Below, piece by piece: positions 10,485 through 46,572 of a stretch of DNA of 64,000 nucleotides. A model generated the notes under the pieces. The model worked only from the letters and a program-made list of their open reading frames with translations, was not told the DNA's origin and made no database searches. Where the stretch lies: NCBI RefSeq assembly GCF_002217795.2, contig NZ_AP018823.1:4340001-4404000 (forward strand), read 5' to 3'. The position numbers were made by a program, and so were the translations under genes. Source of the stretch: Aquitalea magnusonii. GTDB taxonomy: Bacteria > Pseudomonadota > Gammaproteobacteria > Burkholderiales > Chromobacteriaceae. Positions within the stretch are counted from its first letter, which is position 1. Each line of letters starts with the position of its first letter.

Positions 10485-10523
10485 GGTCCTTCTCCTTGGT
10501 AAGGGTTGCTCCGGTTGGCCTGG

Positions 10524-13473: not shown

Positions 13474-13530
13474 GCTGCCGCCCGCCAGGCCGCAACTGCC
13501 AGGCCGTGCTTGCTGCGCGGTGCGCCAGGT

Positions 13531-24750: not shown

Positions 24751-24751
24751 T

Positions 24752-25501
24752 GTGAGCCCGCAAGAAGAACTCGCAAATCTTATCAGTCAGCTTTCACCAG
24801 AACGTGTCAGTTTGCTCATTGAAATGGGCCACGCTCTGACTCGTTCGGTTGTATCGCAAGTGGCATCTGATTCAGACATAGTGGTGGATGCGTTTGAGCG
24901 TGATTTTTCTGGGCGTCTATTACTATTTCACGCAATGCACGACGCAGCTCTGACCAAAAAGACATTTGAATATTTCTTTTGTGGTTCATCCCGTGCAGCG
25001 GGAAGGCATGCATCTCAAACAGAAAACTCTGTTTATCCTGGGGAAGATGTTGTTGTGGATGGCCACAAGTTTTCCTTGAAGACAGAAGGCGGATTATCAA
25101 TCAGTAGCACGGCTATCCATATTTCAAAATTAATGGAAGCCAGATGGATCCGAGAGTGCCATAGTGCTGAGGATTTTTGCACCTTCTCCAAGGAAAGGAT
25201 TGGCATCCATTTAAGCCATTACGAGCGAATTATTTCGCTTCGTTCCTTTCATAGACGTTCTACGGTTTTATACGAACTTGTCGAGATTCCAAAGGATGTG
25301 CTTTTAGAAATCTTCCATTTAAATCCCTCTGATTTTTCAGCAAGAACAGCTAACGGTTCATCTAGTGCCGAGGTTCGAGGAAGCGACGGTAGGCGGTTGT
25401 TCGTTTTAAGTCTTGATGGATCAGTGGAAAAGATCACTGTTCGAAGCCTCCAGTTACGTCATTGTAAGGTACATGCCACTTGGGAAGTTACCCTAGCTTA
25501 G
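24752..25501 (+). CDS. Probable type II restriction endonuclease
   Basis: This 249-residue protein starts at GTG 24752, 7 bp after AGGAG embedded in the end of the C gene; an overlapping in-frame ATG at 24719 would add 11 residues but has no such site. No family is recognised with certainty. The stretch PGEDVVVDGHKFSLKTEGG (about residues 90-108) has the spacing of a PD-(D/E)xK-like metal-binding core (D...LKTE). Function is inferred from the C-R-M layout: it follows the C gene and converges on the cytosine methyltransferase, whose stop is 5 bp away. The recognition sequence is unknown. Confidence 0.68.
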   Translation: MSPQEELANLISQLSPERVSLLIEMGHALTRSVVSQVASDSDIVVDAFERDFSGRLLLFHAMHDAALTKKTFEYFFCGSSRAAGRHASQTENSVYPGEDVVVDGHKFSLKTEGGLSISSTAIHISKLMEARWIRECHSAEDFCTFSKERIGIHLSHYERIISLRSFHRRSTVLYELVEIPKDVLLEIFHLNPSDFSARTANGSSSAEVRGSDGRRLFVLSLDGSVEKITVRSLQLRHCKVHATWEVTLA

Positions 25502-25505
25502 ATAA

Positions 25506-27208: not shown

Positions 27209-27526
27209 TTACGTATTGGTGTCGATGTCCTGCAAGCTGGCCGCGTAGTCTTGCCCGCCGTAGAAGATGCCAATGATGGATACCGTGTCGGCGTCCACGG
27301 TGAAGGCAATGACGGTTCGTTTCTTGTAATGGGTAATGCGTAGTCCTGGCCGCACTTCGTCGCGGTTTGTCCCGCGCAGTGGAAAAGTGTGCAGGTTTTC
27401 GCAGTAGCTTACGATTGCCTCGGTGTATTGCGCTGCGGTATGTGGCGATGCTGCCTCTGCGATGTAGCGGTAAAGCTCGGCAAGCTGCTCCATGGCTTCC
27501 GGGCTGAACACTACCTGATGGCTCAT
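27209..27526 (-). CDS. parE: ParE-family toxin
   Basis: This 105-residue protein of the RelE/ParE superfamily has MSHQVVFSPEAMEQLAELYRYI, LHTFPLRG and the late strand pattern RITHYKKRTVIAFTVDADTV and IGIFYGGQDY. ParE toxins block DNA gyrase. Its ATG overlaps the antitoxin stop by 4 bp, so the pair is translationally coupled. It lies in the DNA that was next to the gyrB terminator before the transposon came in. The symbol denotes the toxin, not topoisomerase IV. Confidence 0.85.
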   Translation of the reverse strand: MSHQVVFSPEAMEQLAELYRYIAEAASPHTAAQYTEAIVSYCENLHTFPLRGTNRDEVRPGLRITHYKKRTVIAFTVDADTVSIIGIFYGGQDYAASLQDIDTNT

Positions 27527-27792
27527 GGTTTCTTGGCGTGTTCGGCGGCCAGACGGGCGCGCACCTGGTCTATGGTGACGGCGCGGGACGGGTCGGCTTT
27601 CAGGGCGTCATAGGCCGGGCCTACCTGATTGAGCAGCCAGCTTTCCACGGCACGGTCTCGTGCCATCAGTGCGCGTAGTCCATCGCGGATGACTTCGCTT
27701 TCACTGGCGTATTCTCCAGAGCGCACTTTTGCCTTCACCTCCTCTGCCATGTCATTGGGCAGGGTGATGCTCATTTGCTGGGTGGTCCGCAT
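27523..27792 (-). CDS. parD: ParD-family antitoxin
   Basis: The 89-residue protein begins with a ribbon-helix-helix DNA-binding segment (MRTTQQMSITLPNDMAEEVK, SGEYASESEVIRDGLRALM) typical of CopG/ParD antitoxins, followed by a C-terminal toxin-binding tail. AAGGAG precedes ATG 27792. A perfect 15-bp palindrome sits 22-36 bp upstream of the start and is the likely operator. Confidence 0.87.
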   Translation of the reverse strand: MRTTQQMSITLPNDMAEEVKAKVRSGEYASESEVIRDGLRALMARDRAVESWLLNQVGPAYDALKADPSRAVTIDQVRARLAAEHAKKP

Positions 27793-27813
27793 GGCAATCT
27801 CCTTTGAAATCAA

Positions 27814-27884: not shown

Positions 27885-27917
27885 AAAAAAGCGACCAGAA
27901 AATCCGGTCGCTTTTTT
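27885..27917 (-). terminator. Strong terminator, probably the original gyrB terminator
   Basis: AAAAAAGCGACC and GGTCGCTTTTTT enclose a 9-nt loop, giving a U-run on both strands. With the transposon (27962-44030 and one CTACC copy) removed it would lie about 50 bp after the gyrB stop on the gyrB strand. Confidence 0.8.
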
Positions 27918-27961
27918 TACCTTCGCGCCATGCAGCTTTGCACGCGCTGCGGTGGCCTACC

Positions 27962-28065
27962 TGTAGATGAACGCATAAGCTGAGAAATCCTGCTCTTGTC
28001 ATTCAATGACTTAGGGCTGGTGGGGACGCATATGCTGAGAAAATGCGACTCATAAGCTGAGAATT
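27962..28065. repeat. Left end of the transposon with three TnsB-type sites
   Basis: GCATAAGCTGAGAAAT (27973-27988), GCATATGCTGAGAAAA (28028-28043) and TCATAAGCTGAGAATT (28050-28065) are in the same orientation, with spacings of 55 and 22 bp. Uneven spacing of transposase sites at one end is typical of Tn7-like left ends. Confidence 0.8.
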
Positions 28066-28216
28066 TACTCCCCCAATCCCTTGAATGTAGGCTTCCGAGA
28101 TGGCCGAAAAACCAAACTCCCATCAGGAGCGATAGCCATCGTCAGCAAGAAGTAATCCGAAAACAACCTGCCAGCGAGTAAATTCTAGCCGGTTTTCCCT
28201 TATGGGTGTAGTCAAT

Positions 28217-29311
28217 CTAAGACGACGCAGTATTGGCTGACAGCCTAGAGAGTGGAGGTGTCTGTCCGGCCATTGCTGCGATAGCGATTCGAAGATTGGT
28301 GCCTAGTTGTACAAGCCGAGCGTGTACGACCTTCTGCGCCTCCTCTCGGCTAACGACGTGGACTGTGGTGGGCCATGAGGCTGCAACAAAGTCAGTAGCA
28401 AGTGCAATTGTGCGTGCCGCCATCAATCGCTTTATCCCACTCTTCGCCTGACCGTAAGCCTCCGCTATGGCCTCGCCTGCGGCCAAAGGCATGACGTCTT
28501 GGCCTGCGGACCACTTCTTTAACCTGCCATAGGAGAAGGTTGCTCCGATACCGCCACGCAGCTGCATGTCAGTGACAAGTGCAGACAACGTTTTGCAAGA
28601 TAGGGATGCTTGAGCTTCTCGAATCCAATTGCCAATCGGATGGTGAAGTGGATTCGTCAGTCTATCGAGATTTTCAAAAGCCAGAGGTGCTGGCTTTCTG
28701 TACTTTGCAATGAAAGATTCAACTAGACCTACGCCAACAAGAGCATTCAACAAACGTTCTACAAAATGATATTCAGCCCTACCTATACCTGGTGCATGAT
28801 TTGACCACCAAGCATCTACATCAGCTAAAAGATTCTCACCACAACAAGGGCAGGGAACTACGCTACTCAAGGTAATGGAAGTGACACGCATTGGTAGTCC
28901 TTCAATTACTTTGAATAGTGCAAGGATGTCAGGCATTAATGGACCATCAACGGCACTACCTGCCTTTTCTTCAAGATACCCCTGTGGAAGTCCTAAGCAC
29001 TTAGCCAATATATCTATTGTTGTTGAACTAGCCTTATGTGTACCCCTCAGTAGATTTTCTAGATTCTTGTAGTGATTCCCAGCTCCATGCCGGATATGAG
29101 CCTGGTGACCAGCATGGTCTGTAAGAAGGCGCACAAGAAACTCAGGGTCTGGGGCTTTTGGGGTAGCTGGTTCTAGGCGAAGCATCCTGCCATACGGACC
29201 TAACTTACGGAGAACCGATACTTGCTGAAATGGCGGAGTAAGAAATTCAGCCACCGTCATTCCTGAAGTGTTGGTATTGGCTGAGCTCAGGCTCGGAGAC
29301 AGGTTTTCCAT
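28217..29311 (-). CDS. Unknown protein (364 aa) next to the transposon left end
   Basis: No family is recognised. Residues about 78-118 (NHYKNLENLLRGTHKASSTT, then IDILAKCLGLPQGYL) could be a Cro-like helix-turn-helix. One CPCCGE pair near residue 155 could be half of a zinc site. The C-terminal half is helical with KKWSAGQD and basic segments. It is the gene closest to the left end of the Tn7-like element, a place where target-selection (TniQ/TnsD) genes sometimes lie, but the TniQ cysteine-histidine pattern is not seen. No clear Shine-Dalgarno site precedes the ATG. Confidence 0.6.
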   Translation of the reverse strand: MENLSPSLSSANTNTSGMTVAEFLTPPFQQVSVLRKLGPYGRMLRLEPATPKAPDPEFLVRLLTDHAGHQAHIRHGAGNHYKNLENLLRGTHKASSTTIDILAKCLGLPQGYLEEKAGSAVDGPLMPDILALFKVIEGLPMRVTSITLSSVVPCPCCGENLLADVDAWWSNHAPGIGRAEYHFVERLLNALVGVGLVESFIAKYRKPAPLAFENLDRLTNPLHHPIGNWIREAQASLSCKTLSALVTDMQLRGGIGATFSYGRLKKWSAGQDVMPLAAGEAIAEAYGQAKSGIKRLMAARTIALATDFVAASWPTTVHVVSREEAQKVVHARLVQLGTNLRIAIAAMAGQTPPLSRLSANTASS

Positions 29312-29404
29312 GCAGCGGTACCATCATCCAATGTAGAGGTGAGAGCATAGTTTGCGTCCAACAAGGACGCCAAACCTAGACTTCTCACATGAAAGGAAAA
29401 CATC

Positions 29405-29509
29405 ATGACAATTCATGCCTATGCTGACGCTGACAATCCGAATTGGCCGAGCCGTACCGGCAATCCATCTGGTGGTGGACGTGGGAATAACCCACCGACC
29501 AAAAATTAA
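29405..29509 (+). CDS. 34-residue small protein inside the transposon
   Basis: An ATG with AAAGGA 9 bp upstream opens MTIHAYADADNPNWPSRTGN followed by PSGGGRGNNPPTKN and a TAA stop. The composition (Asn, Pro, Gly, one Trp, no hydrophobic core) is not that of a random ORF, and a hairpin follows the stop. It diverges from the 364-residue gene. I recognise no family. It may be a small regulatory or structural peptide, or a leader. Confidence 0.5.
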   Translation: MTIHAYADADNPNWPSRTGNPSGGGRGNNPPTKN

Positions 29510-29521
29510 CAACTTAGGTAA

Positions 29522-29550
29522 GGCAAGCTCGCTCTGTTGGTGGGCTTGCC
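29522..29550 (+). terminator. Hairpin after the 34-residue gene
   Basis: GGCAAGC and GCTTGCC flank a 15-nt loop 12 bp past the stop. A T-run is lacking, so it is only a moderate candidate. Confidence 0.4.
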
Positions 29551-29635
29551 ATCATCTCTGCTAAGCAGCCTTGCAGCGGCTAGACTCTCACATCCAGTTG
29601 GTCAGATGGTTCCGAACTGTATGGAATGATAGTTG

Positions 29636-29998
29636 TTATGACCTTTTTGACCCAAAGGAGCCGGGAAGAATGGGGGACCACCTGCGCTTTGGCTTTGGAA
29701 CCTTCTTAATTGCTTTTTCCAAAGCAGCAATTTTCTTCACTAATTCAGCCTGATTTGGAGAAGTAGTTGAATTGCGCAGTGATTCCTTCATGATTTTCAA
29801 CTCAGATTTAAGGTCATCAAGTTTTTTCTTATTCTTAGCATCATTCTTAGCAGCTCTCTCCCGCTCTTTTTTTGCATAGAGACTTGCTTGGTATTCGAGC
29901 GGCACATTCCCCAGTCGAGAAGGTGAACTTGAAAATAAAACGGTACCATCGGACATCATTTTTTTTTCGATGGGGGATGTGCATTTTTTATGGCTCAT
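29636..29998 (-). CDS. Hypothetical coiled-coil protein (120 aa)
   Basis: The N terminus MSHKKCTSPIEKKMMSDGTV is followed by a Lys/Glu-rich segment (residues about 40-100: KKERERAAKNDAKNKKKLDD, then LKSELKIMKESL and AALEKAIKKV) that should form a coiled coil. The protein ends with a basic, proline-containing tail. AGGAC lies upstream of the ATG. It is downstream of the DUF262 gene on the same strand but separated by 176 bp. The function is unknown. Confidence 0.55.
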   Translation of the reverse strand: MSHKKCTSPIEKKMMSDGTVLFSSSPSRLGNVPLEYQASLYAKKERERAAKNDAKNKKKLDDLKSELKIMKESLRNSTTSPNQAELVKKIAALEKAIKKVPKPKRRWSPILPGSFGSKRS

Positions 29999-30174
29999 GG
30001 AGCAAGTCCTAGCGTACTAACTAATCTTGGGGAAGGATAGAAATTTACCGCGATGGCACTGCTTATAGGTCATACCATTCGGCTGTTGCCATCCTCGAAG
30101 ATGCTCATTCCTCACATGCCACATCATTGAGAGTATGAATTTATTTGCAGGCATGCATGTAAGACACCGCCAGC

Positions 30175-32028
30175 TTATATTCCTTGCAGCTCCTCATCCT
30201 CTTCTTCGGATGTATCAATAGCCTGCTCAGCCTCCACGTGTAGCAGAGTCTTGCCCATGGCATGCCCAATTAGTTCTAGGAGTGCTTGCTTACGGGCTGA
30301 ATAAAAACCATAGAAATCATCACTTCGTAGCAGCGCCGGGTTAATTGCATGCGTGCTCAAGATGACATCCATTTCTTTGTCATCAATTTTGACATGCTCA
30401 TGCTGCTGAATTTTGCCTAGGTATATGGATGGTGCCACGCCACCTATCATTCGATTTGCCTTGTAGGACAGGGGAGTCTTGTTCACAACGGTGTTGTATT
30501 GCTGCCTTGGGATACCCTTCTTTTCGCACCAGTCTTGAGGGAAAATATGGTGAATATCCAATGCAACGTTCTCTTCCTCTAGCTCAGAGATGGTTCCTTT
30601 CCAGAAGAAGTCCGCAGCCTTCCCGCGCAAGAGAAGGACGTTAAGGCCCTTGTAGGCAGCACTGAGACGAGATGTCATGCGGTCAAGACGGTCTGGACGG
30701 AATGCAGCATCGTGTATGGTGCGAGGCTCCGGGGCAGAGTCACCTTTCTCAATCCAGGTCAGTAAGTCTTCAACATCATTGGCGATTCGGGTTTCCACCG
30801 CGCCACCGTACAGTTCTCCAAGTACGCCGCACCAGTACCAACGTGCCAATTTTTCGTAGATACGTGGCTCTTTCCATCTTTCTTCCAGAATGGTCATTAC
30901 TGCTGCGAGTGGAGCTAGCTGAGTCCGGTATGGCAGGTCCCGGCCATCTCGTACACATTCTCGTCGCAGAAATTTTGCCGCACGCTTGAATCCCTCCTCA
31001 ATCGCATCAGCCCACTCTTTGTATGCCGCCAGAGGCATCTCCAGAATTGTTGCGCGCTTTGCACTTACTGGAGTGACTTGCTTGCCTGTTTTTCCGGCCT
31101 CGAGGTCAGCTTTCCGACGTTTCAATGTGTACAACATGGCAATAGCTTGCAGGAAGTCTGTGGATTCCAGAGGTCTCAGCACTGGCTCGGTAGTCAATCG
31201 CTTATGCCGAGAATCCACCTTACGGGCTGTGCTGCCAAACCAGTCATCGCGCAGGTTATATCCATCAGCTGCATAGGTCGCAGTTACAAGTTCGAAGACA
31301 TTGAGTGGCACACCACCTGTATTCACTTTTTCGAAAACCAGGCACACGGCTTCCTTGCTGGTGGACTTGTGCAATTGAATGACTGGAAGCTGATAGCTAC
31401 GAAATGCCTGTAATACCTGTTTACGGAACTTCATGTAGAGACCGAATTGTTCCGGTTTGGCTTCCTGCAGTCCTTCTTCCCACGCATCAGAATTCATCGT
31501 TTGGCGGCAGGGGAAATAAAGGTGTTCGTACTCATGGGCAGGGGTCGACAGGTCCAGCTTGATATCACGACCGAAGTTTTCTCGCAGGCATTTGTCGGCA
31601 TCCACTGCAATAATGGCTTCATCTAATGACTCAACTCCCTCGAGAGCACGCTGAATGTCCCAGTAGTAATAACGCTCAATAGCACGACCTTTTTCATTAC
31701 GGGTCGCTACTGGTCCATCAATAGATAGCACCTGAGTTAGAGTAGTCAGTCGCTGTTGGCCATCCAAAATCAGCAGCTCAGCGGCAGGAATGCTCTCTGG
31801 CAGCTTTACGCCTTCTACTGGGCGAATCTGGAAGCGTGTTTCTCCCCCAGTTTCAAGTAGCATTACCGCACCCACTGGAAACGAACGTGCAATGCTGACC
31901 AGCAAACTACGTACATGGCTGTCATCCCAGACCCAACCGCGCTGAAAATCTGGCAGTTGAATTTTCCCGTTACTGACGTCCTTGAGCACGTCCTCCAATG
32001 AACGTTTGGTGCTATCGAAGTGGCTCAT
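30175..32028 (-). CDS. GmrSD-like protein: N-terminal DUF262, C-terminal DUF1524 (HNH)
   Basis: The 617-residue protein begins with the DUF262 ParB-like module: IQLPDFQRGWVWDD near residue 23 and ILDGQQRLTTLTQ near residue 85 are the conserved nucleotide-handling motifs. The C terminus has the HNH-type DUF1524 motif ALDIHHIFPQDW with a following NKTPLSYKANRMIGG block. This fusion is found in type IV restriction enzymes of the GmrSD family, which cut modified phage DNA, and in related defence proteins. AAAGGA precedes the ATG. It lies 98 bp downstream of the truncated helicase on the same strand, so the two may be a defence operon. Confidence 0.82.
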   Translation of the reverse strand: MSHFDSTKRSLEDVLKDVSNGKIQLPDFQRGWVWDDSHVRSLLVSIARSFPVGAVMLLETGGETRFQIRPVEGVKLPESIPAAELLILDGQQRLTTLTQVLSIDGPVATRNEKGRAIERYYYWDIQRALEGVESLDEAIIAVDADKCLRENFGRDIKLDLSTPAHEYEHLYFPCRQTMNSDAWEEGLQEAKPEQFGLYMKFRKQVLQAFRSYQLPVIQLHKSTSKEAVCLVFEKVNTGGVPLNVFELVTATYAADGYNLRDDWFGSTARKVDSRHKRLTTEPVLRPLESTDFLQAIAMLYTLKRRKADLEAGKTGKQVTPVSAKRATILEMPLAAYKEWADAIEEGFKRAAKFLRRECVRDGRDLPYRTQLAPLAAVMTILEERWKEPRIYEKLARWYWCGVLGELYGGAVETRIANDVEDLLTWIEKGDSAPEPRTIHDAAFRPDRLDRMTSRLSAAYKGLNVLLLRGKAADFFWKGTISELEEENVALDIHHIFPQDWCEKKGIPRQQYNTVVNKTPLSYKANRMIGGVAPSIYLGKIQQHEHVKIDDKEMDVILSTHAINPALLRSDDFYGFYSARKQALLELIGHAMGKTLLHVEAEQAIDTSEEEDEELQGI

Positions 32029-32126
32029 CGATTTCCTTTCTGTTCTCTTTGTAAGCAGTGAATCATTCCCGCCCCTGTGGGCAATCGCGTCCCAAAATTA
32101 CGCCTTGGCCAGCGTTTGGCTACCAC

Positions 32127-35100
32127 TTAAGACATCCAGGCACTTTCAAGCCGGGCTCTGCTCACTGCACTAAGTTTTCGCAAGCCGATTTCACGGGCCA
32201 TGGCTTGGATGCCTGTTTCCTGGTCATGCCCTGCGGCCCTCATTTCGAATGCAAGTGCCTTTAATTCCGGCAACGAAATTTCATCAACGGAACGGGCGAC
32301 GCCTTCTGCAGGCCGCCGGAACCGAATCGCATCAGCTGAACTGCTATCTTTGGCCCAGAAGAACGTACCAACATCCTCTGACCCACTGTCGTAATGTATG
32401 GATGCAAGACCAACGACCCGCTCCTGAATACGTGCTCCGGTCCGGACCCATCCATGTAGACGCGCAATCCGCCGAGCAAGAACCTCATCAAGAACAGGAC
32501 CTTCGACGCGCACTACATGCTCAATCATTTTTAGGAGCTGGGCATCATACTCAGCATCAAAAAATGCCCCGGTATCTACTTCCAACCCAGTCGAGGCTAA
32601 ATCGGCCTCGACGAACTGGAACCCAGGGTGTTGAGCATTGGGGGTAACGGCAGCATTTCGAGCATAGGTTTCAACAGACTGGTGAGTGTCCTTCGTCAGC
32701 ATCTCAGCATCGCTGATGCTTACTTCAGCTTGACCTTCCGTCATCACCATGGCATCTGCAATAGCCTGTTGGGCAAGCTTCTCCGCCTGCTCTTCAGCTT
32801 TTGCAGTTTCTGCACGCTGCTCTGCCAAACGCGACTCAAGTTGTAAGTGAATTTTCTCTAGTGTGCCTGGCATATCAATCCACCAGTCAGTGGACCATAT
32901 CCGCATGATTTCCCAGCCCAGCCCCCGTAATACTTGCTCGCGAAGCTTGTCGCGGTCTCGGGCAGTTGCGGAACGGTGGTATGTCGCACCATCGCATTCC
33001 ACGCCAGCGAGATAGCGACCGGGTGCATCCGGGTCAACAACGCCTAGGTCGATACGGAACGCTGATACACCGACCTGAGGGTGAACTTTCCAACCTTTCT
33101 CCGTAAGGGCGATGGCAACAGCTTTCTCGAATGGACTATCAAAATCACCAACGCTGCCATAGATGCTCTCACCAAGAGCGCGAGCACCACGGTCGGCAAA
33201 CTCAAGGAAGTGCTTCAGGTCGCGTACGCCCAGGGCCTGAGTTCTCGACAAGTCCATTTGCTCTGGTTGGAAGCTTCCAAAGACACGTAGCTCCTGTCGA
33301 GCCCGAGTAATGGCCACGTTCAGACGTCGCTCGCCGCCTTGCTTGTTCATCGGACCGAAGTTCATGGGAACGGGACCGGTCACTCCCGGTGCATTACCGT
33401 ATGTAATGGAGAAATACATGATGTCTCGCTCATCACCTTGAACACTTTCCAGGTTCTTAACGAAGACAGGCTCCAGTTGGCTCTCAAGGAAATACGGCTC
33501 TATGGAGGGGTCTTTACGGCGTTCATCGTCCAACAGATTCTCGATAAGAGACTGTTGTTCTGCATTGAAGGTGACAACCCCTATAGTGAGCCCGCTATCT
33601 CGGAATCTAGGTGACTTCAGCTTACCGACAAGGTCTGCGACCAATGCCTTTGCTTCAGGTTTGTTTGTCCGTGAAGCACCACGCTCATATTGTCCGTTCG
33701 GCACGTGGGTGAAACTCACCGCTCTGTCATTGGTCAGCGGGCTCGGGAATGTAACTAGCTCACCGTCGTAATAGCGATAATTCGAGAACGCTATCAAACT
33801 TTCATGGCGGCTACGGTAGTGCCACGATAGTTTCATCGTTGGCAGATTGGCACCGATACACTCTTCCAAGATGCTTTCAAGTTCAGCCTCGACATCACTG
33901 TCGTCTGCATCGGATTCGGCACGGTCAAAGAAGCTGGTCGGCGGCAATTGTTTAGGGTCACCGACCATAATGACTTGCTTCCCGCGAGCCATTGCACCGA
34001 TAGCATCCCAAACTGGTATCTGCGATGCCTCATCGAAGATGACCACGTCAAAATTCGCTGTCTCAGCAGGAAGAAATTGAGCAATGGACAATGGACTCAT
34101 GAGTAAGCAGGGGGTCAAGCTCATCACGGCGTCTGATGCACGAGTCACCAGCTCTCGTAAGGGTAGATGGCGCGTTTTTTTCTGCATTTCGTAACGCAGT
34201 AGACCCCACTCGGACCCATGTGAAACTCGTTCAGGTGATGGGTGACCAGCAGAAAGCTGTGCACGTACTAATGCCTGAGTGAGGCTAGTAAAGCGCTCAT
34301 CCAGCTCTCTGAAATCACGAATACGCTTTTCATGCTCAGCAGAAACAAAGGTTCGGAGCACATCGTCCCGGTCGACCACTGCATTCAGCCACCATCGGCA
34401 GTAGTCCGTTTCGAAGGTTTCTTTTACTTGGCCAAGTTGAATATTTCCTTGCTCCAGGCCCTTAACGACATTGGCGAGCCCCAATGACAGTGCCTGTTGG
34501 CGTGTCTTACGCCACGCACACCACGCATTCAATCTATTTGATGTATGGAGTACACCTTCGGCACGCTGTAGGACGTCGCTGGGTAGTAGTCCTCCAAGCG
34601 TTACTTTGTCGGATTCAGGCAAGCCACTGGTGATGCTGAAGCGGGTAATGGCCTCATCAAAGGAACTCAATGCATTTGCATAGGTACGCCCCGCACTAGC
34701 AATGGCTCCGGTAGACCCAAGCAGGACGTTACTATCGCCTAGTAGCAGTGCAATTGGCGCCTTAATGGCAGCAAGTGCTTCAGGCGTAGTAGCAAGCACA
34801 GAAAGTGAGGTGGTTAGTGCCTCGTAAAAACGGAGAGCGGGCGCAATCGCTTCAACTTTCGTCTGCAGTCCATTCCACAAGCCAGATGTTTTGGAAGACA
34901 AGTCCTCGAATTCTTTCAGCCGCTCTTGAAGCGAGACCATTTCTCGCATTTTCTTGAGGTCTGCAGCTGCGGCTACTCCCGCGCGACCATTTTCGATAGC
35001 ATCTAAACCATCATCTTGCCATGGGGTGTTGCTTCGAGCCGATAGCAATGCGCCTTGAAAGATGACAAATATTTTTGCAACAGCAAGGTCCGTCTCAAAG

Positions 35101-36592
35101 CCTGACCAAACCCCATTGGATTCCTTATCCAGGCCAGATAGTCGATTGATAACCTGCTCTATCTGACGCATTTCCCGCATGCGCAGGATGTCTTCACGTG
35201 CGATGTCACCACATCGACCATGGCTGACGGGGTCAAGGCCAATGTCTTCCCATGCTTGGCGGGAACGTGCTTGTTCAAGTGCGGACTGGAATGCAAATGC
35301 AGCACGAGCAACATCGAGGTCCGTCTTCACCCCAGACCATGCATTCGAGGTGAGCAGTGATAGGTCTTCAAACAGTTTAATATCGGCATGAAGCTTGTCG
35401 AGCTTCACCAGGCACTCAATGTCCGTGCCAATGTCCGGTTCACCGCTTCCATTTGCCAGCCCTTTGAGCTTCTTGACCAATGTTTTACGGCGCATCACGG
35501 TCATCGGCCATGATGAATTCTGTAGCTCCAGCCAGTCCTGTTGTAGCTGATGCACTGTGGCGGTGGAAATTCCTTCTTGATACGGAATCGTCAGCTGACT
35601 AATCAGCTCCTGGCGATTTCGTAGCAACTTGATTCCAACGCCAAGCCGGGAGCGGAGGCTCTCATTCCAAGGGGGCGAAAGGTGTTCTTTAAGCTCCAAG
35701 TAGCGGGAGAGCTGCGAGATACCCAGCCGAATATCTTCAAGGACTTGATTACTGCATGGGGCGGATAACGCACCCAGCAGTTCACGATAACGTTCAACTA
35801 ACGGAGCGGCTTGGCAAAGGTTTTCAGCTATTGCCTTTGCATCTGGACGCAAGACAAACTGCCAGTCGTGACCTGATGCCGCAGGTAGCGTGTTTGCAAG
35901 CAGCCGGAGTCCTTCACGGACTCGTGGCTCCATTTGTAGTGCTGGGATTCCGATAGCAGAGGTAAGTACACCTGTAGCCTCCTCGAAGGCCTGTACCGCA
36001 GGTCCAACTCCCTGAGCCGCCTCCAGCAATGCTGACTGCCATAATGGCGACCACTCCGTTTGAGCGACATGTGCTAGTGGGCTTGCGGTAAGTTGCTCAC
36101 TACCAATTACTTTGGCATGAACATCAAGCAGTTCTGCGGTTTCCCGCAGAGTGTGCATATCTTTTACACCATGCGCTTGCGCTGTTGGCCATGAGAGGTG
36201 GAGTACTGGAAGGTCTTGTCCGGCAACTACCCTACCAATAGCCTCGTACACACTCATTCCATTCGAATGTCGAACATGTAACCGTTCAACATACCGATTC
36301 AATTGTGCACGAAGCCCTTCTAGTCGTTCTGCTTCTGACTGCCACTCTTCAGGGGCTATTGCTGCAGCTCCATCCCAGGAACGGCGAAGCTGTTCTAACA
36401 CATCCGTTTTGCGTGCTTTGTTCGAATGCAGTTCAAGACAAAAATTACCGAGGCCAACATCTGCAAGGCGCCGATAAACAACATCAAGCGCGGCCATTTT
36501 CTCGGAAACAAAGAGCACTCGCTTCCGTTCTGCGAGGCATTGAGCAATCAGATTCGAAATGGTTTGGCTCTTGCCTGTACCTGGGGGCCAAT
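32127..36592 (-). pseudogene. Large SF1 helicase-nuclease, 5' part removed at the IS junction
   Basis: About 1488 native residues remain. They begin abruptly at the Walker A loop (WPPGTGKSQTISNLIAQCL). Later come Walker B (FDVVIFDEASQIPVWDAIGA), GDPKQLPPTSFFDRA, VQGDERDIMYFSITYG and RLNVAITRARQELRVFG. A nuclease-like domain near residue 1195 (FEKAVAIALTEKGW, RIDLGVVD, AGVECDGATYH) has the PD-(D/E)xK/Vsr pattern, and a DUF3320-type helical tail ends the protein. Family members usually have several hundred more N-terminal residues (DUF4011). An ATG inside the IS end is in frame but would start only at the ATPase loop, so activity is doubtful. Such helicase-Vsr fusions occur in defence islands. 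Confidence 0.8.
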
Positions 36593-36655
36593 TGAATCGC
36601 CCCTCCTTTCCTAGACACTTCGCGAGCCTCACACTAGGCCCCACAAGGAGGTGTC

Positions 36656-36934
36656 ATGAGCAAGCCGCGTTTCCCCGAAGCGTTCAAGATTGAAGCAGTC
36701 AAACAGGTAACCGAGCGTGGTTACCCAGTGGCCGAAGTCGCCAGCCGTCTCGGCGTATCTGCCCACAGCCTGTATCAATGGCTGAAACGCTTCGACCCCA
36801 AGCGCGCCCAACCGGCCGAACCCGCAGACCAGCAAGCCGAAATCCGACGTCTCAAGGCAGAGCTCAAACGGGTCACCGAGGAGCGCGACATCCTAAAAAA
36901 GGCCGCCGCATACTTTGCCAAGGAGTCCGGGTAA
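36656..36934 (+). CDS. IS3-family transposase OrfA
   Basis: This 92-residue DNA-binding protein has a helix-turn-helix (FPEAFKIEAVKQVTERGYPV, VAEVASRLGVSAHSLYQWL) and a leucine-zipper-like tail (EIRRLKAELKRVTEERDIL). It ends AAYFAKESG. AGGAGGTG lies before the ATG. The slippery heptamer A-AAA-AAG at 36895-36901 lies in its last codons and allows a -1 shift into OrfB. Confidence 0.93.
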   Translation: MSKPRFPEAFKIEAVKQVTERGYPVAEVASRLGVSAHSLYQWLKRFDPKRAQPAEPADQQAEIRRLKAELKRVTEERDILKKAAAYFAKESG

Positions 36935-37806
36935 GGTATGCCTTCATCCGGGCCCATGCACAGCAGTTCCCTATTCGACGTCTGTGTCGTGTTATGTCGG
37001 TGCATCCCAGTGGCTACTACGCCTGGAAAGCATCCCCGCATTCACCACGAGCGCGTGAAGACCAGCGCTTGCTGGAGCACATCAAGCAGGCGTGGCTCGA
37101 AAGTGGCGGTGTCTATGGCTATCGCAAGGTGCATGACGACTTGCAGGCTCAGGGAGAGCGCTGTGGCAAACATCGTGTGGCTCGGCTGATGAAGCAGGAA
37201 GGCTTACGTTCGCAGACGGGTTACCACCGGCGTCCTGGGCATTACCGTGGCCGCCCGGCAGTGGTGGCACCTAACCACCTGCAACGCCAGTTCACCGTGA
37301 ATGAACCGAATAAAGCTTGGGTGACCGACATCACTTATATCCGCACGCATGAGGGGTGGTTGTACCTGGCGGTGGTGCTGGACCTGTTCTCGCGGCAGGT
37401 GATTGGCTGGTCGATGCAGTCACGTATCGATAGAGAGCTGGTGCTGAATGCCCTGTTGATGGCGGTATGGCGACGTCAGCCCAAGCAGGAGGTACTGGTG
37501 CATTCCGACCAAGGAAGTCAGTTCAGTAGCTACGATTGGCAGGACTTCTTGAAAGCTCATCGCTTGGTGCCCAGCATGAGTCGGCGTGGGAACTGCCACG
37601 ACAATGCCGTGGCAGAGAGTTTCTTCCAGTTGCTGAAGCGGGAGCGCATCAAGCGCAAAACCTATCACGACAGGGAGGAGGCCCGGCGGGATATCTTCGA
37701 TTACATCGAAATGTTCTACAACCCGAAACGCCGGCATGGTTCCGCAAACGGGCTATCGCCGGTAGAGTTTGAGAAGCAATATTTCCAACGGCTCAAGAGT
37801 GTCTAG
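36656..37806 (+). CDS. IS3-family transposase OrfAB, made by -1 frameshift
   Basis: The OrfB part (about 36899-37806) holds the DDE integrase core: GVYGYRKVHDDL, WVTDITYIRTHEGWLYLAVV, VLVHSDQGSQFSSYDW and the late catalytic region NCHDNAVAESFFQLLKRE. No good start codon opens OrfB by itself, and the A-AAA-AAG site at 36895-36901 in the overlap supports production of the fused transposase by ribosomal frameshifting. All three acidic residues are present, so the enzyme appears intact. Confidence 0.88.
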
Positions 37807-37824
37807 AGAAGCCGGGGCGATTCA

Positions 37825-38203
37825 GTGCTAGAGGCGAGCCTTGTTGCTGCTGATATAACTCTTTTGCCCGACGGTAAGCCTGTAGAAAACTACATCCCTG
37901 ATGGCGCTGGATGTCGCAAATGTCACGCATGATTTTGCGGATGTTGCTGTTCTGTTCAATCAACACCTCGTCCGTTGCCTGACCTGCAAGCGATGCGCGA
38001 GGACGACCTGGGCGGAGAACAGTTAATGAACCATCATGAATCGCGGACTGCAGCTTCACGGCTTCAACGTAACGTTCTACGTGTTGCTCAGCATCGAAGA
38101 CCTTTATCCAGCCTTTCTTTGGCTTTGCGTCGAGTACTTCCAGGTAGGCATCTGGTTTCTGCAGTGAAGCAACTTTGTCATGCAAACGTAAAGTGCGAAT
38201 CAT
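37825..38203 (-). pseudogene. tnsB: tnsB, 5' remnant (about 126 residues) cut off by the IS
   Basis: The frame begins MIRTLRLHDKVASLQKPDAY with an ATGA overlap to the tnsA stop, the usual tnsA-tnsB coupling. It contains a Tn7-transposase-like N-terminal DNA-binding region and is cut at base 37825, where the IS right end begins; the last residues would be IS-encoded. Full TnsB proteins have roughly 650-700 residues with a DDE domain, none of which remains. Identity rests mainly on its position after tnsA and on general sequence character. Confidence 0.65.
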
Positions 38204-38973
38204 TGTTCGAGCACCTCTAGCAAGCACAGATGACCAAGGTCGCCATAAGCCAAGCTCAGTTCTAATGTGCCCCCCATGCGGCGGTACCCTATGTCGCCGC
38301 TCAATACGCCAGCAACAAGCAAGACCGGAATCAATCCTGGATGGAGCTGCAAGTCTTTGCATAAGGCAGACATCGTGACCGGCCCGTCTTCACAGTACTC
38401 AATGACTTTCTCAACGATTGCGTCGTTCAGATACGTCTCAATCTTGGTGGCCGCTTGCTTGAGCTGCCAGGCATTTGCCCGAACCGGATGGTTGGCGTCT
38501 GCTGGAATAATGACGGTGCGAAGAGGATAGCCATTGGCGTTCAGAATCGGGCGAGCCCAGGCAATCTTGTCCCAATACGCCTCTGGCCCTTCAAACCCCT
38601 CGGTTTTGACTTCTACCGCAGCGAACAGCCCATCAGCCCAACTGATGCTGAAGTCTGGGGTGTATAGCTTTTCACCTTCCACATCGCGATGACGATGCCA
38701 AGCCTCGCTTTTTGCTTCCTTGGTCAACAGCAGGCGCTGGTCAACCAGGTCTACGCTGAATGGCTGCGGCTGAAAGGCTTTGACTCGCGGGTCAATCGCA
38801 AGCAAGTGCGAAATCAGGCGCTCGGGATTGTGTTCAACATTGATGTGGCCCGATGCCTTCTCATTGAAGGTGCTGAACTTCGGCTTGCCAAAGGTGGAGG
38901 CAACTTGGCGGATACCGGAGTCTGACTCGTGTCGGCGGCTGCGACGGCCGTAGGTGTGCGATATACGAGTCAT
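38200..38973 (-). CDS. tnsA: TnsA-like transposon endonuclease
   Basis: The 257-residue protein has the TnsA N-terminal nuclease layout: a glutamate in VEHNPERLISHLLAID, an aspartate in YTPDFSISW and the lysine pair region AAVEVKTEGFEG, a PD-(D/E)xK arrangement. A C-terminal winged-helix-like segment follows (VTMSALCKDLQLHPGLIPVL). In Tn7-like elements TnsA cuts the 5' ends so that TnsAB performs cut-and-paste. The ATG at 38973 follows GTAGGT; upstream in-frame codons look non-coding. The next gene, tnsB, is truncated, so the enzyme has no partner here. Confidence 0.8.
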   Translation of the reverse strand: MTRISHTYGRRSRRHESDSGIRQVASTFGKPKFSTFNEKASGHINVEHNPERLISHLLAIDPRVKAFQPQPFSVDLVDQRLLLTKEAKSEAWHRHRDVEGEKLYTPDFSISWADGLFAAVEVKTEGFEGPEAYWDKIAWARPILNANGYPLRTVIIPADANHPVRANAWQLKQAATKIETYLNDAIVEKVIEYCEDGPVTMSALCKDLQLHPGLIPVLLVAGVLSGDIGYRRMGGTLELSLAYGDLGHLCLLEVLEQ

Positions 38974-39964
38974 CGTAAACCTACGACAGTGTGAAGATGG
39001 AAAGCTGAAGTAGTGGAGCGATGCGCGGCGTTGGCACAGACCGAAGTCGGTACAAATCGCGATATCGCAGTACGGTTTAGACGCAGCATTTGGCACTCAG
39101 TTGAACTTGTTGCTGCGCAGCTTACTGCAGTATTTTGATGAAAAATAGCCCCACATTTGCCGAAGTTGGTGGAATTTTCGTGAAAACTGCCAGCAATAAA
39201 ACGGTGTTTTTGCAATAAAAATTTTTTAAAAAAATTTACTTGCGATGGTGGTGCTGACAGCCTGCTGTAGCGTGAAGGTGTGGAGACGTGGGAGAGGTTG
39301 AGGGCCGAAAAGGCAGGATTTTGGCGAAAAACCAAGGCAGCCGAGCAAATGGCATTTCGCGCTTGGTTGCACGTATCTACAAGGGTATCGCAGGGGCAAA
39401 CGATACCCATAGGCACACATGTCATGCCCTTTAAGGTGTATGACTCTGTACTTTTTTTGGTAGCCTGTTCCATTGCCAACTCCCGCCGTACCCTCTCACA
39501 AATAGCGGGTGCCCGCGGTAGCGGTGTCATATATCAACGAAAACAGGTCATATCTCAAAACAGCAGGTCAGCGTTGCACTGACATCTACCAAACTTAGGT
39601 GATGGAGTGGGGGTTTTCAAGCAACGTGAGCAGTATCTGGAATGCCATCGCTTCCTGCAACTTGAGTGCGGGATAACTGTATTGATAGGCTGAAATTTAA
39701 TTTGCTATGTGCATAAGGTACTTAGGAGTGGTCTCTGGGGTCGCCTGTAGTCAGTCAGCCCAGCAATGATGATTGCTGAAACTAGCCGCTTACGGCCATG
39801 AGCCGCCCCTTGCGTTCGCAAGGCGAGTGACCGCTTCAGGCAGGCTACTCTCGCTCGGGTTTGAAGCCCGAAAGTCAGCTGCTGACGAGACCTGACATTG
39901 AACTTTACCGGAGGCGGCTAGCGAGACGAACGCACAGCCGATTGCCAACTTGAAAGGAGGGACT
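38974..39964. other. Gene-free 1-kb region upstream of tnsA
   Basis: No ORF is convincing. It is AT-rich at 39120-39250, carries a candidate second transposon end at 39525-39584, and from 39780 to 39950 has several short inverted repeats (such as GGGTTTGAAGCCC). The strong AAAGGAGGG site of the next gene closes it. Confidence 0.5.
39525..39584. repeat. Three ~20-bp direct repeats ending in TGACA: candidate inner Tn7-like end
   Basis: GTCATATATCAACGAAAACAG, GTCATATCTCAAAACAGCAG and GTCAGCG... follow each other at 20-21 bp, and the block is bounded by TGTCA (39525) and TGACA (39580-39584). Tandem sites of this size next to tnsA resemble the TnsB sites of a Tn7-like right end. The motif differs from the CATAAGCTGAGAAA motif of the outer ends. 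Confidence 0.45.
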
Positions 39965-42115
39965 ATGGATAAGCCGCGGGAGGAATCCCAGATTCTGGAG
40001 GACCTGACCACGCTAGCCGCGTCGCCCGGATACGCTCATGCGGTTGCACACATTTGCCATCGCGACAACGTCATCCACATCAAGGGTAAGCTGAAGCCGT
40101 CTGACATGGACCGTTTGTTCAGCAGCGAGCGCCTCATTCGGACGGAATTGACGACGCTGATTGGCCTGATGGCGAAAAAGCCATTGGACCTTTCCCTGCA
40201 GCCGACTGATGTGGTCGAGGGCTACGTCAAGCGCACAGATGCCCTTTTGCGGGAACTGCACGATGCGATGTCCTACCCCATGTTCGCTGCCATGTTCGAG
40301 GCGTTGAACGCGGGCGCTGAGCCGCCAAACCCGTGGTGCGGCCTGGGAATACGAGAGCCCATCTTCTATGGTACCGAGTCGGCCTACGCCTTCCAGTACA
40401 GGGACCTAGTGCCCGAGAAGTACGGGGCCGATGATGACTGGATGCTTAAGACGAAGGGCTTCACCTCCGGCCAGGCGCGGACCATCGCAAAGACGATGTG
40501 CGCCTTGATGGACGAAAAGGGGACGCGACTCTTTGCGGATGCTCGAGCTGCCAAGGCTCCACCCGCAACTTTCCTGCCCGCATTCGAGTTCTCGCTGGAT
40601 GAGGTGGCGTTTCGCAGTGGTATTGCGCAGGGGGTGGTCAAAGCGTTCTTCCACGCGTTCCTCTTCGTGGGGGATAACGCGGCGTTCAAGGAAGTGGGGG
40701 ACTTCAATGAGGTCGCAGCCCGGCCGCTGCTACTTACCGACCGCGGGACCGTGCTCCTCTTCTCGCACTACGCCATTTACGAGGCGCTATACGAGTCTCC
40801 GTTCTTCTGGATGTTGGATGACAAGCCCTACCGCCCGACGGCCTCCAAGCATCGCGGCGCCTTCGCCGAGCAGTTCGCTGCGCGCCGGCTGGCCGGAGTC
40901 TTTGGCTGCGAGCACGTCTATACGAACGTGAACCTGCATCGTGGCAAGGACATCGTGGGTGAAGCTGATGTTCTGGTCATTTACGGTGACCGGCTCATCA
41001 TCGTGCAGGCGAAGGCGAAGAAGCTGACCATCTCAGCCCGCAAGGGGAACGACAATCAGCTGAAGGCAGACTTCGCTGCTGCCATTCAGGATTCCTACGA
41101 CCAGGGTTGGACTTGCGCCAACGAGATTCTCGCTGGCGAATGTCGCTTAGTGGACGACAAAGGAAATGAAGTCGGCTTGCCCCCGAGCATCAAAGAGGCC
41201 TTCCTGTTCAGCCTCGTGTCGGAACACTATCCTGCGCTGGCCTTTCAGGCAAGCCAGTCGCTGAAATTCCAGACCACCGATGTTATCCGGCCTCCGTTCG
41301 TAATGGACGTATTCCTTCTCGACACGCTGACTGAAATGCTGACGACGCCGCTGCGATTATTGAGCTACGTGAAGTTGCGCGTGGCAGTCGTGGACAAGCT
41401 GATGAGCGGGCATGAGCTGACAGTCCTCGGCTACCACCTGAAACAGAACCTCTGGCTGGATGACAATTACAACACCGTCATGCTCGAGGACTCCATCGCT
41501 CGAGACCTAGACACGGCGATGATGGTTCGTAGGGATAACCTGCCTGGAGACGATACGCCGGCTGGTATCCTCACTAAGATGCGCGGAACTCGCTACGAGA
41601 GTCTCATCAAAGAAATTGAGACGAGGGCAGACCCGGCAACTCTCGAACTCGGGTTCCACCTCCTTTCTATGGACGAAGATTCGTGCAAAAACGTCCACAG
41701 CGTACTCGAGACCATCACGCGGAAGGTGCAGTGCGACGGGAAGCGACACGACGTGACGCTCGCGTCGAGCACAACACCGGGCGGGGTAAGCTTCCATTGC
41801 AATCCAACGCTGTCTCCCGAATCGATTGCCGTGCTGGAGACCCACTGCGTCAAACGCAAGTACCAGCAACGTGCGAGGCAATGGTTTGGCGTCTCCGTGA
41901 ACCCGGATGGGCAAGTCCAGTTTGGTGTCACATTGGACTTTCCGTGGGAGCCCTCGGAGGAGTTGGACCAGCTAACCGCGAACATGAAGCCGGCGGCTCG
42001 GGTTCTCGACGTCCTTCCTCAATACACGCGAGGGGTCAGCCGCATAAAACTAGGGAGGAACGAGCCGTGCCGCTGTGGCAGCGGACGCAAGTATAAGAAG
42101 TGCTGCTTGGACTAA
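39965..42115 (+). CDS. Nuclease-like protein with C-terminal SEC-C zinc motif (716 aa)
   Basis: A NERD/restriction-endonuclease-like stretch lies near residues 305-365: FAEQFAARRLAGVFG, GKDIVGEADVLVIYG and LIIVQAKAKKL form an E...D...QAK catalytic pattern. The C terminus is a SEC-C motif (GRNEPCRCGSGRKYKKCCLD), a zinc-binding tail. AAAGGAGGG before ATG 39965 sets the start. It lies alone in the right part of the transposon and is probably cargo with a DNA- or RNA-targeting role; defence is an inference. Its codon use is GC-rich, unlike the AT-rich genes to its right. Confidence 0.65.
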   Translation: MDKPREESQILEDLTTLAASPGYAHAVAHICHRDNVIHIKGKLKPSDMDRLFSSERLIRTELTTLIGLMAKKPLDLSLQPTDVVEGYVKRTDALLRELHDAMSYPMFAAMFEALNAGAEPPNPWCGLGIREPIFYGTESAYAFQYRDLVPEKYGADDDWMLKTKGFTSGQARTIAKTMCALMDEKGTRLFADARAAKAPPATFLPAFEFSLDEVAFRSGIAQGVVKAFFHAFLFVGDNAAFKEVGDFNEVAARPLLLTDRGTVLLFSHYAIYEALYESPFFWMLDDKPYRPTASKHRGAFAEQFAARRLAGVFGCEHVYTNVNLHRGKDIVGEADVLVIYGDRLIIVQAKAKKLTISARKGNDNQLKADFAAAIQDSYDQGWTCANEILAGECRLVDDKGNEVGLPPSIKEAFLFSLVSEHYPALAFQASQSLKFQTTDVIRPPFVMDVFLLDTLTEMLTTPLRLLSYVKLRVAVVDKLMSGHELTVLGYHLKQNLWLDDNYNTVMLEDSIARDLDTAMMVRRDNLPGDDTPAGILTKMRGTRYESLIKEIETRADPATLELGFHLLSMDEDSCKNVHSVLETITRKVQCDGKRHDVTLASSTTPGGVSFHCNPTLSPESIAVLETHCVKRKYQQRARQWFGVSVNPDGQVQFGVTLDFPWEPSEELDQLTANMKPAARVLDVLPQYTRGVSRIKLGRNEPCRCGSGRKYKKCCLD

Positions 42116-42498
42116 ACGAGGGCGCGAGGGCATCACGCTAGCGCACCTTGCATGGCCAGACAACTTCTGGGGTGTTGTCAAGGTCAGCAGTACGCTTGAA
42201 ACCTATCATCGGCCCCAAGAGATTGCTGATTCCCGATGACTGCAACCCAGCCTAGACCGTGAGTTGAGTATGCGGCCCTCTCCGACCGGAACCGCTGCAT
42301 AGCCGTTATTCAGCCCTGAGTGATGATTGACTGTAATGGGTCGTTTTAAGAATTGGACGGTGGGCTGCTCTCGGCCAGTTCCAGCCATTCAAAAATTTGG
42401 TAAGTTCGTAAAATGAAGGCAGTAGCAGTCCGGATAGCCGACGTTAATAGAAAGCTAAAACACAGTGCGCTCCTGCGCGGTCCTGTATGAGCAAAGGG
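42116..42498. other. Intergenic region in the transposon
   Basis: No gene is seen. The phrase TAATGGGTCGTTTTAAGAATTGG near 42,333 partly matches the GCAATGGGTCGTA phrases at about 26,893 and 43,887. Confidence 0.35.
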
Positions 42499-43137
42499 TT
42501 AAGTCTCTGCGCCATCCCGTTTTTCAATTGCTTTTCGCGCACCTTCTGGAAGTTGGCTGTACAACGCCGAGATGTATTTTGGTCTTGATATTCGGTCTTC
42601 AATGATGAAATTCATCATCGTGAATAGGTTGTGAGCAATTTCTGGAGTGTCGTTTATTTCAATTTCGCCAGGATGCACGGCATTGTTTCCAACGACCCGA
42701 CAGAAGTCTAAAGCCTGCTGGACTTCGATTGGCAGGCCTTTGGTTACTAATGACCCGATATCGTCGTTGATGTTCTTGCCTCTCTCTCCAAGCTCGGACA
42801 TTAGTTTTTGGAGTGATAACCTCAACAAGGCAGAAGCAGCACGAGGGGAAGTCGCAACAACTTCCCTAGCCTCATTGTAATCAAGCAGACATGACTCTGG
42901 CATGTCTGGATGTGCAGGTGGGACTGGAGCTGCAGATGGAACAATCATCCTTCCTTCATACCAATATGACCATTCTTTGCAATGAGAGCAGATGCAGAAA
43001 TTTAACGACTGGTGGGTAGAGTAGCTTCCATGGGCGGAGTGAAAATAAAATTCACGCCAATGCTGTGATGAAAAAACTCCACAATGAATGCAATGGAATT
43101 CTCTTTTTTTATGCTCGGGCGGGTAGTATTTTTGCAT
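42499..43137 (-). CDS. DUF4145-like protein
   Basis: This 212-residue protein has an N-terminal CxxC pair (FHCIHCG) and a second pair (FCICSHC), making a zinc ribbon. A helical domain follows with YNEAREVVATSPRAASALLR, FCRVVGNNAVHPGEIE and NLFTMMNFIIEDR, the pattern of DUF4145, a domain common beside restriction and other defence genes. It is AT-rich relative to the chromosome. No Shine-Dalgarno site is evident. The role is unknown; the HPGE helix pair resembles HEPN-type helical bundles. Confidence 0.65.
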   Translation of the reverse strand: MQKYYPPEHKKREFHCIHCGVFSSQHWREFYFHSAHGSYSTHQSLNFCICSHCKEWSYWYEGRMIVPSAAPVPPAHPDMPESCLLDYNEAREVVATSPRAASALLRLSLQKLMSELGERGKNINDDIGSLVTKGLPIEVQQALDFCRVVGNNAVHPGEIEINDTPEIAHNLFTMMNFIIEDRISRPKYISALYSQLPEGARKAIEKRDGAET

Positions 43138-43243
43138 ATTGTATTTTGATGTTTATAGCCTTAACTTATTGCCACCGAAGTATTGGCAGAGGGCTCCTAA
43201 CCATCTAGGGAAAATGGATATTAGTTTGAAGGGTCTCTCGTAA

Positions 43244-43609
43244 TTAACTGAAAATGTATTCCTTTGGAACAATACAATACCCCTTGATAATGGGCTGAAT
43301 GTCTTCACGATATACATGAATATCAGACGGATTTATCTTAATGTTATCCAATGATGCAAACTCAACAACAAAGACTGCATAATCTTCAGCAACACTTCTC
43401 CCGCGATGGGCTAAGCAGCTTGAACTTCTATTGGCATATGAAATAGACTGAAGAGTTGGCCCAAACTTAAATCCGTTATTTATTATTGATTCAATATTTT
43501 TTTTGGGAGTGGCATGAAAAAATACGAGTGGATTTCTTTCCAGTTCATCATCAAAAAGGCAGTAGCCATTCCTTTCAGTCGGATTGGAAAATTCATAAAC
43601 TTTCATCAT
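43244..43609 (-). CDS. Small hypothetical protein with ADP-ribosyltransferase-like start (121 aa)
   Basis: The segment LVFFHATPKKNIESIINNGF resembles the H-x-T...I-x-x-G-F opening of small ART-fold proteins (for example Tpt1/KptA or DarT-like enzymes), followed by SCLAHRGRSVAEDYAVFVVEF and a strand-rich tail. This is a motif-level impression only. It starts MMKVYEFSNPTERNG. It is strongly AT-rich and lies near the right end of the transposon, with no partner gene overlapping it. Confidence 0.45.
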   Translation of the reverse strand: MMKVYEFSNPTERNGYCLFDDELERNPLVFFHATPKKNIESIINNGFKFGPTLQSISYANRSSSCLAHRGRSVAEDYAVFVVEFASLDNIKINPSDIHVYREDIQPIIKGYCIVPKEYIFS

Positions 43610-43742
43610 TAATAGTCTTTTCTCACTTAATTATTGATGCCAATGAACAAATAAAACAGAACTTTACTGTGACACACAGTATTGCAACTCAAACGCATGC
43701 TTTCAAGAACTTTGTCCTAGCGGGGTCTGTATAGTTGCCCAC

Positions 43743-43780
43743 TGGTCTGTCCCGCTGTCCACGAAGAGCGGGACAGACCA
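43743..43780. repeat. Perfect 14-bp inverted repeat with 10-nt spacer
   Basis: TGGTCTGTCCCGCT and its exact complement flank GTCCACGAAG. No T-run follows, so it is unlikely to be a terminator. It could be an operator or a recombination remnant within the right arm of the transposon. Confidence 0.6.
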
Positions 43781-43965
43781 CACAATCTACCGCATGCCGG
43801 AATTGAACCTACACCTTCCTTATCTGCTATCCATGACTGCGCGCACCTCAAAGCGGTCGGCATGCCACACCAAAATCTAATGGCTGCAATGGGTCGTAAG
43901 TTGCCTGAACCCATACTAAGGCACCGTTACAAGACGGCATTGACTCATTAGCAGTAACAATCCAA

Positions 43966-44007
43966 AAAAAGAGGCCCATAAATTTCTCAATTTATGGGCC
44001 TCTTTTT
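43966..44007 (-). terminator. 19-bp-stem terminator in the transposon right end
   Basis: AAAAAGAGGCCCATAAATT and its perfect complement enclose the loop TCTC. On the gyrB strand the stem is followed by a run of T, so it can replace the terminator displaced by the insertion. Part of the stem is also a degenerate transposase end motif (CCATAAATTGAGAAAT). Confidence 0.8.
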
Positions 44008-44030
44008 CTCAGCTTATGAGTCTATCTACA
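43982..44030. repeat. Right end of the transposon with two TnsB-type sites
   Basis: On the complement strand the end reads TGTAGATAGACTCATAAGCT and on into GAGAAA; the first site covers 44004-44019. A second, divergent site, CCATAAATTGAGAAAT, is at 43982-43997. The terminal base 44030 adjoins the CTACC duplication. Confidence 0.78.
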
Positions 44031-44037
44031 CTACCCC

Positions 44038-46572
<2,535 letters not shown>

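Follow-up and report, generated by a model that had tools for sequence, protein, structure and literature searches.

An element behind gyrB

The 64,000-nucleotide window analysed here (positions 4,340,001 to 4,404,000 of contig NZ_AP018823.1 of Aquitalea magnusonii) contains a 16,069-bp Tn7-like element, 27962-44030, next to the 3′ end of gyrB. The gyrase gene lies on the minus strand with its stop codon at 44038-44040, and beyond it are two genes that, from their translated sequences, we take to be dnaN and dnaA. The element starts 7 bp beyond the stop codon and is bounded on both sides by CTACC, as a preliminary description of the region had reported. The features that define the insertion are these:

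27957..27961, no strand: target-site duplication, copy 1, CTACC; genome G006 has it once, at its empty site
27962..28064: left end, terminal inverted repeat together with the CATAAGCTGAGAA motif in three copies, presumably bound by TnsB
44005..44030: right end, terminal inverted repeat
44031..44035: second copy of the CTACC target-site duplication
44038..46479, minus strand: gyrB, the attachment gene, an open frame from the open reading frame (ORF) list with GyrB relatives

Examination of the two ends shows that the left terminus, TGTAGATGAACGCATAAGCTGAGAAA (27962-27987), and its inverted partner (44005-44030) are identical at 23 of 26 positions. A search for CATAAGCTGAGAA allowing at most three mismatches within about 430 bp of either end located three copies in the left end (at 27974, 28029 and 28051) and two in the right end, reading leftward (at 44018 and 43996); the extent of the match and the internal motif copies therefore stand as first described. 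With its TGT...ACA ends, repeated motifs and 5-bp target duplication, the element bears the hallmarks of a Tn7-like transposon.

The preliminary description also proposed that relatives be searched for an empty site with one CTACC. We fused both flanks around a single CTACC and aligned the result to genomes of the same genus. G006 matches the fused flanks at 97% identity over 856 bp across the junction, with one gap and one CTACC; this is a clean empty site, and it rules out the ends as chance repeats. G004 matches at 93% over 856 bp with no gap and with one of the five duplication bases changed.

gyrB as an attachment gene in relatives and in other lineages

To look for related elements we used TnsA, the one transposition protein that is intact in the window. 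The single window TnsA found no relative genome as a query; a query made from a TnsA alignment gave 36 loci, and the named homologues are mostly from Burkholderiales (Ralstonia, Cupriavidus, Burkholderia, Paraburkholderia), with one from Chromobacterium. We searched for gyrB in 34 genomes, leaving out L032 (a short second contig of the G072 genome) and L023. In 30 of these 34, gyrB lies upstream of tnsA on the same contig and strand, at a spacing of 4.1-62 kb; in the other four (G066, G077, G081 and G082) the contig carrying tnsA ends before reaching gyrB. Within the Chromobacteriaceae, window-type TnsA occurs in 4 of 61 genomes, and all four have gyrB upstream on the same strand. Because a class-wide search, using an even draw of genomes with at most seven candidates scored for each listed genome, found window-type TnsA in only 1 of 369 genomes (the window's own), it seems to be an uncommon family beyond the groups in which we found it.

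The junctions themselves were compared in 37 different genomes (the window's, G024, G059, G018 and 33 more), with end types judged by eye. A TGTAG end follows the gyrB stop codon in all 37, at a distance of 6 bp in 12 genomes, 7 bp in 21, 8 bp in three and 10 bp in one, and in 36 of them it is the right end of the window family; the exception, L033, has a different end. The expectation that such ends would recur behind gyrB in relatives is thus borne out. Target duplications, established for six of the 37 genomes, vary: GGTAG (the window, on the gyrB strand), TGTGT, CTGTT, GAAGT, TGTAG and GTGTA. The 7 bp that follow the stop codon show hardly any base preference (0.1-0.4 bits), and the end of the coding sequence is conserved. 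A fixed attachment site and a fixed orientation are found across the relatives of the window element, and the site is used by this family in both Burkholderiales and Chromobacteriaceae.

The same address is also used by other, distantly related Tn7-like lineages, stacked on one another. Among the best 30 of 60 matching gyrB genes in Chromobacteriaceae, whose loci we classified, the downstream ends comprise three of type A (the window family), eight of type B (GGATCCCAC), eight of type C (GGGTGACA) and 11 that are empty or other. In 15 of 61 Chromobacteriaceae genomes (from a comparison of two lists), a TniQ gene shares contig and strand with gyrB and lies no more than 60 kb downstream of it. 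TnsB of type A shares 16-20% identity with the other gyrB-side TnsB proteins, which share 25-46% between types. As for stacking, a type A element sits 5 bp inside an apparent type B right end in G024 and is followed downstream by a type B end in G059, and L022 has a second A-like end downstream of the first. Type C elements in G020 and G019 (duplications AAGGG and GATTC) have a type B end directly after them, and G002 has a type B element, with a duplication, TAAGC, that includes the stop codon, and then a C-like end. The insertion distance from gyrB is unchanged in G024, G059 and L022, where the site is already occupied by another element. Since these other lineages share the site and stack there, gyrB itself is the probable location of the target signal.

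We ran a profile of the type A TniQ C-terminus against gyrB-downstream TniQ proteins of the other lineages and two non-gyrB controls from the window genome. Whole-protein E-values extend from 9.5e-8 (L133) to 0.05, with the controls at 0.03 and 0.09, and one control outscored three of five B-type proteins; this profile gave no match in L134 or in the short TniQ of L121, L131 and L136. Such scores are compatible with shared descent and with convergence alike. Type C elements at gyrB encode both a short and a long TniQ (L121, 6660-7574 and 7946-9865; L131, 10169-11554 and 11454-13373), an arrangement that may point to a pair of targeting pathways.

The window's genome (G000) holds two further Tn7-like systems. 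In L122 (G000:C1:330001-349000; tnsA to tniQ, 12815-7137), a second element seems, with its end judged by eye, to begin 24 bp past the lysS stop codon, so that lysS is possibly another attachment gene. L123 (G000:C1:1985001-2004000) contains a third operon, 8263-13833, with tnsA, tnsB, tnsC and a 654-amino-acid TniQ; its genes were named by order and size, and its TniQ by Pfam.

Transposition genes, cargo and the gyrB terminator

Intact relatives were predicted to encode TnsB, TnsC and TniQ, and in 34 of 38 relative loci tnsA, tnsB, tnsC and tniQ are all present; in one relative, Pfam matches TniQ, TniB and Mu-transpos_C. The Chromobacterium piscinae element, L020, is one of the intact relatives. 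TniQ has the highest mean pairwise identity of the four proteins (0.67, against 0.63 for TnsC, 0.62 for TnsA and 0.56 for TnsB), with conservation peaking at residues 481-600. At about 615 amino acids it is longer than the solved TniQ chains (155-432 amino acids), and its N-terminal TniQ domain is followed by predicted tandem winged helices of the excisionase/MerR type. The 50 rows listed by VIA-align for the predicted TniQ comprise TniQ, excisionase, MerR-type and other small DNA-binding folds. No fifth gene after tniQ is conserved: among ORFs of at least 100 amino acids within 4.5 kb, the best cluster occurs in at most 11 of 34 loci. A common cargo block follows tniQ in L013, L021, L025 and L033 (with parts in L036 and L041) and consists of what, from their sequences, are presumably two ParB/RepB-like proteins and a serine recombinase.

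The window copy is a broken member of this attachment-site lineage. It had been called complete, yet only about 126 codons of tnsB remain, and both tnsC and tniQ are missing:

38200..38973, minus strand: tnsA, intact, 257 amino acids; 84 homologues, the best at 95% identity
37825..38203, minus strand: tnsB remnant, about 126 of about 673 codons; 61% identical to a relative's TnsB over residues 2-118 of the latter
36593..37824, plus strand: IS3-like insertion sequence (IS) with 27-bp imperfect inverted repeats and rve and HTH_21 domains

In an alignment of 26 sequences, E51, D107 and E121 of the window TnsA are invariant and K123 nearly so. The protein itself matches no Pfam model and no PDB sequence; among its 84 homologues, three are annotated TnsA by their source and two carry PF08722. 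Of the TnsB that a Tn7-like transposon requires, about 673 residues long, the window retains only a match to residues 2-118; the element contains neither tnsC nor tniQ. The copy is thus unable to make its own full TnsB, TnsC or TniQ, and we rejected the idea of a complete, self-mobile element. Help in trans from another genomic copy was likewise rejected: the only TnsB match in G000 besides the remnant is 24% identical and belongs to a different element. The two TniQ genes found in this genome both lie in other elements. The IS3-like element sits between the tnsB fragment and a helicase gene that lacks its start, and it marks where most of tnsB, tnsC, tniQ and the helicase start were lost. Its two flanks read CAAT and GTGC and show no duplication. 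We infer that an IS-associated deletion is the simplest account of the loss.

By its matches to profiles of known systems, the element carries anti-phage cargo:

28217..29311, minus strand: 364-amino-acid protein, no family match (Pfam, PADLOC, NCBIfam)
29636..29998, minus strand: 120-amino-acid protein; only a weak PADLOC match, LmuB, 16 bits
30175..32028, minus strand: GmrSD_N (DUF262-type) protein, 617 amino acids; GmrSD_N 109.7 bits, PADLOC PDC-M55C 110.4 bits
32127..36592, minus strand: helicase/nuclease, ProA/Hhe-related (anti-phage), start lost at the IS junction
39950..42115, plus strand: 721-amino-acid protein with NERD domain and SEC-C motif, by domain scan
42499..43137, minus strand: DUF4145 protein, a full-length match to anti-phage PD-T7-4, PADLOC 319.3 bits
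43244..43609, minus strand: 121-amino-acid protein, no family match (Pfam, PADLOC, NCBIfam)

The helicase/nuclease scores 1448 bits against NCBIfam antiphage_ProA (cut-off 1500), its best stretch beginning at profile position 1001, and also matches PADLOC PDC-S37 and Hhe. Outside the element, about 1.2 kb from its left flank, is a type II restriction-modification set (24490-26777) of a helix-turn-helix controller, a SmaI-family nuclease and a C5 cytosine methylase.

Insertion has also separated gyrB from its own terminator-like hairpin. At the empty sites L079 and L081 a terminator-like hairpin with a T-run directly follows gyrB; in the window it now lies 16 kb away:

27885..27918, minus strand: gyrB's own terminator-like hairpin, now beyond the far side of the element
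43966..44007, minus strand: right-end hairpin with T-run and 19-bp arms that include the second end motif; proposed replacement gyrB terminator

A ParE/ParD-like toxin-antitoxin pair (27209-27813, minus strand) starts about 70 bp from the displaced terminator. With a custom script, 31 of 37 right ends showed a hairpin and T-run within their first 200 bp, compared with 44 of 185 mononucleotide shuffles; the script accepts a long A/T-tailed stem, and L052, L060 and L063 are weak members of the 31. A consensus terminator scan of the window gave 16 sites, the number expected from shuffles (16.0); the right-end hairpin was not among them, and nor was the old gyrB terminator. Judged by its form and position, the right-end hairpin could substitute for the displaced terminator.

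Target selection and its implications

These results make us confident that the segment 27962-44030 is a Tn7-like transposon and belongs to a lineage that uses the 3′ end of gyrB as its attachment site, as the preliminary description had supposed. In the mechanism that we propose, the conserved coding end of gyrB is the most probable binding site of TniQ in the intact relatives, and TniQ would then recruit TnsC. TnsA and TnsB would be directed to insert 6-10 bp past the stop codon with the tnsA-side end facing gyrB, yielding a 5-bp duplication without fixed sequence and leaving gyrB intact, and the right end would often supply a hairpin and T-run as a possible replacement for the displaced terminator. 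The window copy would have inserted behind gyrB in this way and later been disabled by a deletion beside the IS3-like element.

A signal downstream of gyrB, such as the terminator hairpin, could instead define the target: many mobile elements use terminator hairpins, and at empty sites the insertion point falls between the gyrB stop codon and the terminator. However, the distance from the stop codon is nearly constant while the downstream sequence varies, and in G024 (5 bp inside an apparent right end), G019, G020 and L022 the downstream DNA is another element. Because position relative to gyrB holds regardless of the downstream DNA, and the 7 bp after the stop codon show almost no base preference, we place the signal in the gene and consider a downstream one unlikely. 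Insertion guided by RNA, through a transposon associated with clustered regularly interspaced short palindromic repeats (a CRISPR-associated transposon, CAST) with a gyrB-matching guide, is less probable still. CASTs are Tn7-like and some home beside conserved genes (PMC11406308), but no ORF cluster within 4.5 kb after tniQ is common to more than 11 of 34 loci, and the relatives' TniQ exceeds the solved chains in length and is itself predicted to contain winged helices. The only cas-like match in the window is a weak type IV Cas8 (17.7 bits) on the tnsB fragment; the search did not extend to CRISPR arrays or to cas genes located elsewhere in the relatives. Although the window copy lacks complete TnsB, TnsC and TniQ, the clean empty site, together with an end, an orientation and a spacing shared by 36 of 37 genomes, already refutes a genomic island with chance-similar ends or one moved by another enzyme.

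The known systems closest to this lineage are Tn7, a parE-targeting branch of CASTs and the Tn6022-type elements. In Tn7, the TnsD pathway directs insertion to attTn7 at glmS, about 25 bp past the stop codon. The gyrB lineage resembles Tn7 in combining TnsA, TnsB and TnsC with a TniQ-family selector, in its 5-bp duplication, and in inserting just past an essential gene in a single orientation with the tnsA side adjoining the gene; it differs in targeting gyrB, 6-10 bp past the stop codon, and in lacking a conserved fifth gene after tniQ. Two other known targets are parE, which is a paralogue of gyrB, and comM, in which insertions lie inside the gene. In the accessible text of PMC11406308, TnsD of a branch of I-F3 CASTs targets parE, so that there too a TniQ-family protein guides insertion beside a type II topoisomerase gene; that branch also carries CRISPR-Cas and a second TniQ. 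The gyrB lineage differs from it in its target. No Cas genes were seen in it, in a survey that took in the window, with its one weak Cas8 match, and the shared ORFs of the 4.5 kb following tniQ, but not CRISPR arrays. Tn6022-type elements, which according to the available part of PMC10293859 target comM via TnsF, are also Tn7-like with their own chromosomal attachment gene, but use another gene and selector, and gyrB-lineage insertions lie after the gene.

The idea that this target is undescribed has held in the literature that we searched. The part of PMC11406308 that we could consult names glmS, parE, tRNA, comM, guaC, yciA, ffs and rsmJ as targets and contains no word beginning with gyr; the main texts of PMC10293859 and PMC8649781, as available, mention neither gyrB nor gyrase, and in the accessible portion of PMC12452197 gyrB appears solely as a host phylogeny marker. 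A full-text literature search, judged by title and start of abstract and with supplementary tables and most subscription journals beyond reach, yielded no gyrB attachment site for Tn7-like or TniQ elements. The end of gyrB is apparently an unreported Tn7-like landing site, with an unlabelled entry in a large table being possible.

More broadly, we lean towards seeing the gyrB 3′ end, in its place next to dnaN and dnaA, as a docking site of general use. Tn7-like lineages that diverged deeply would have come to it independently of one another, each relying on a winged-helix TniQ of its own to read the same conserved codons; elements would stack in order of arrival, and right-end terminators would keep gyrB transcription bounded. 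An essential, near-universal gene joins the Tn7-like attachment sites, and several lineages meet at one address. Distantly related selectors that use one gene end can be compared directly, which makes target acquisition by TniQ testable. Looking behind gyrB is also a simple way to find defence-gene cargo, and the lineage is a candidate fixed-site insertion system that spares its target gene.

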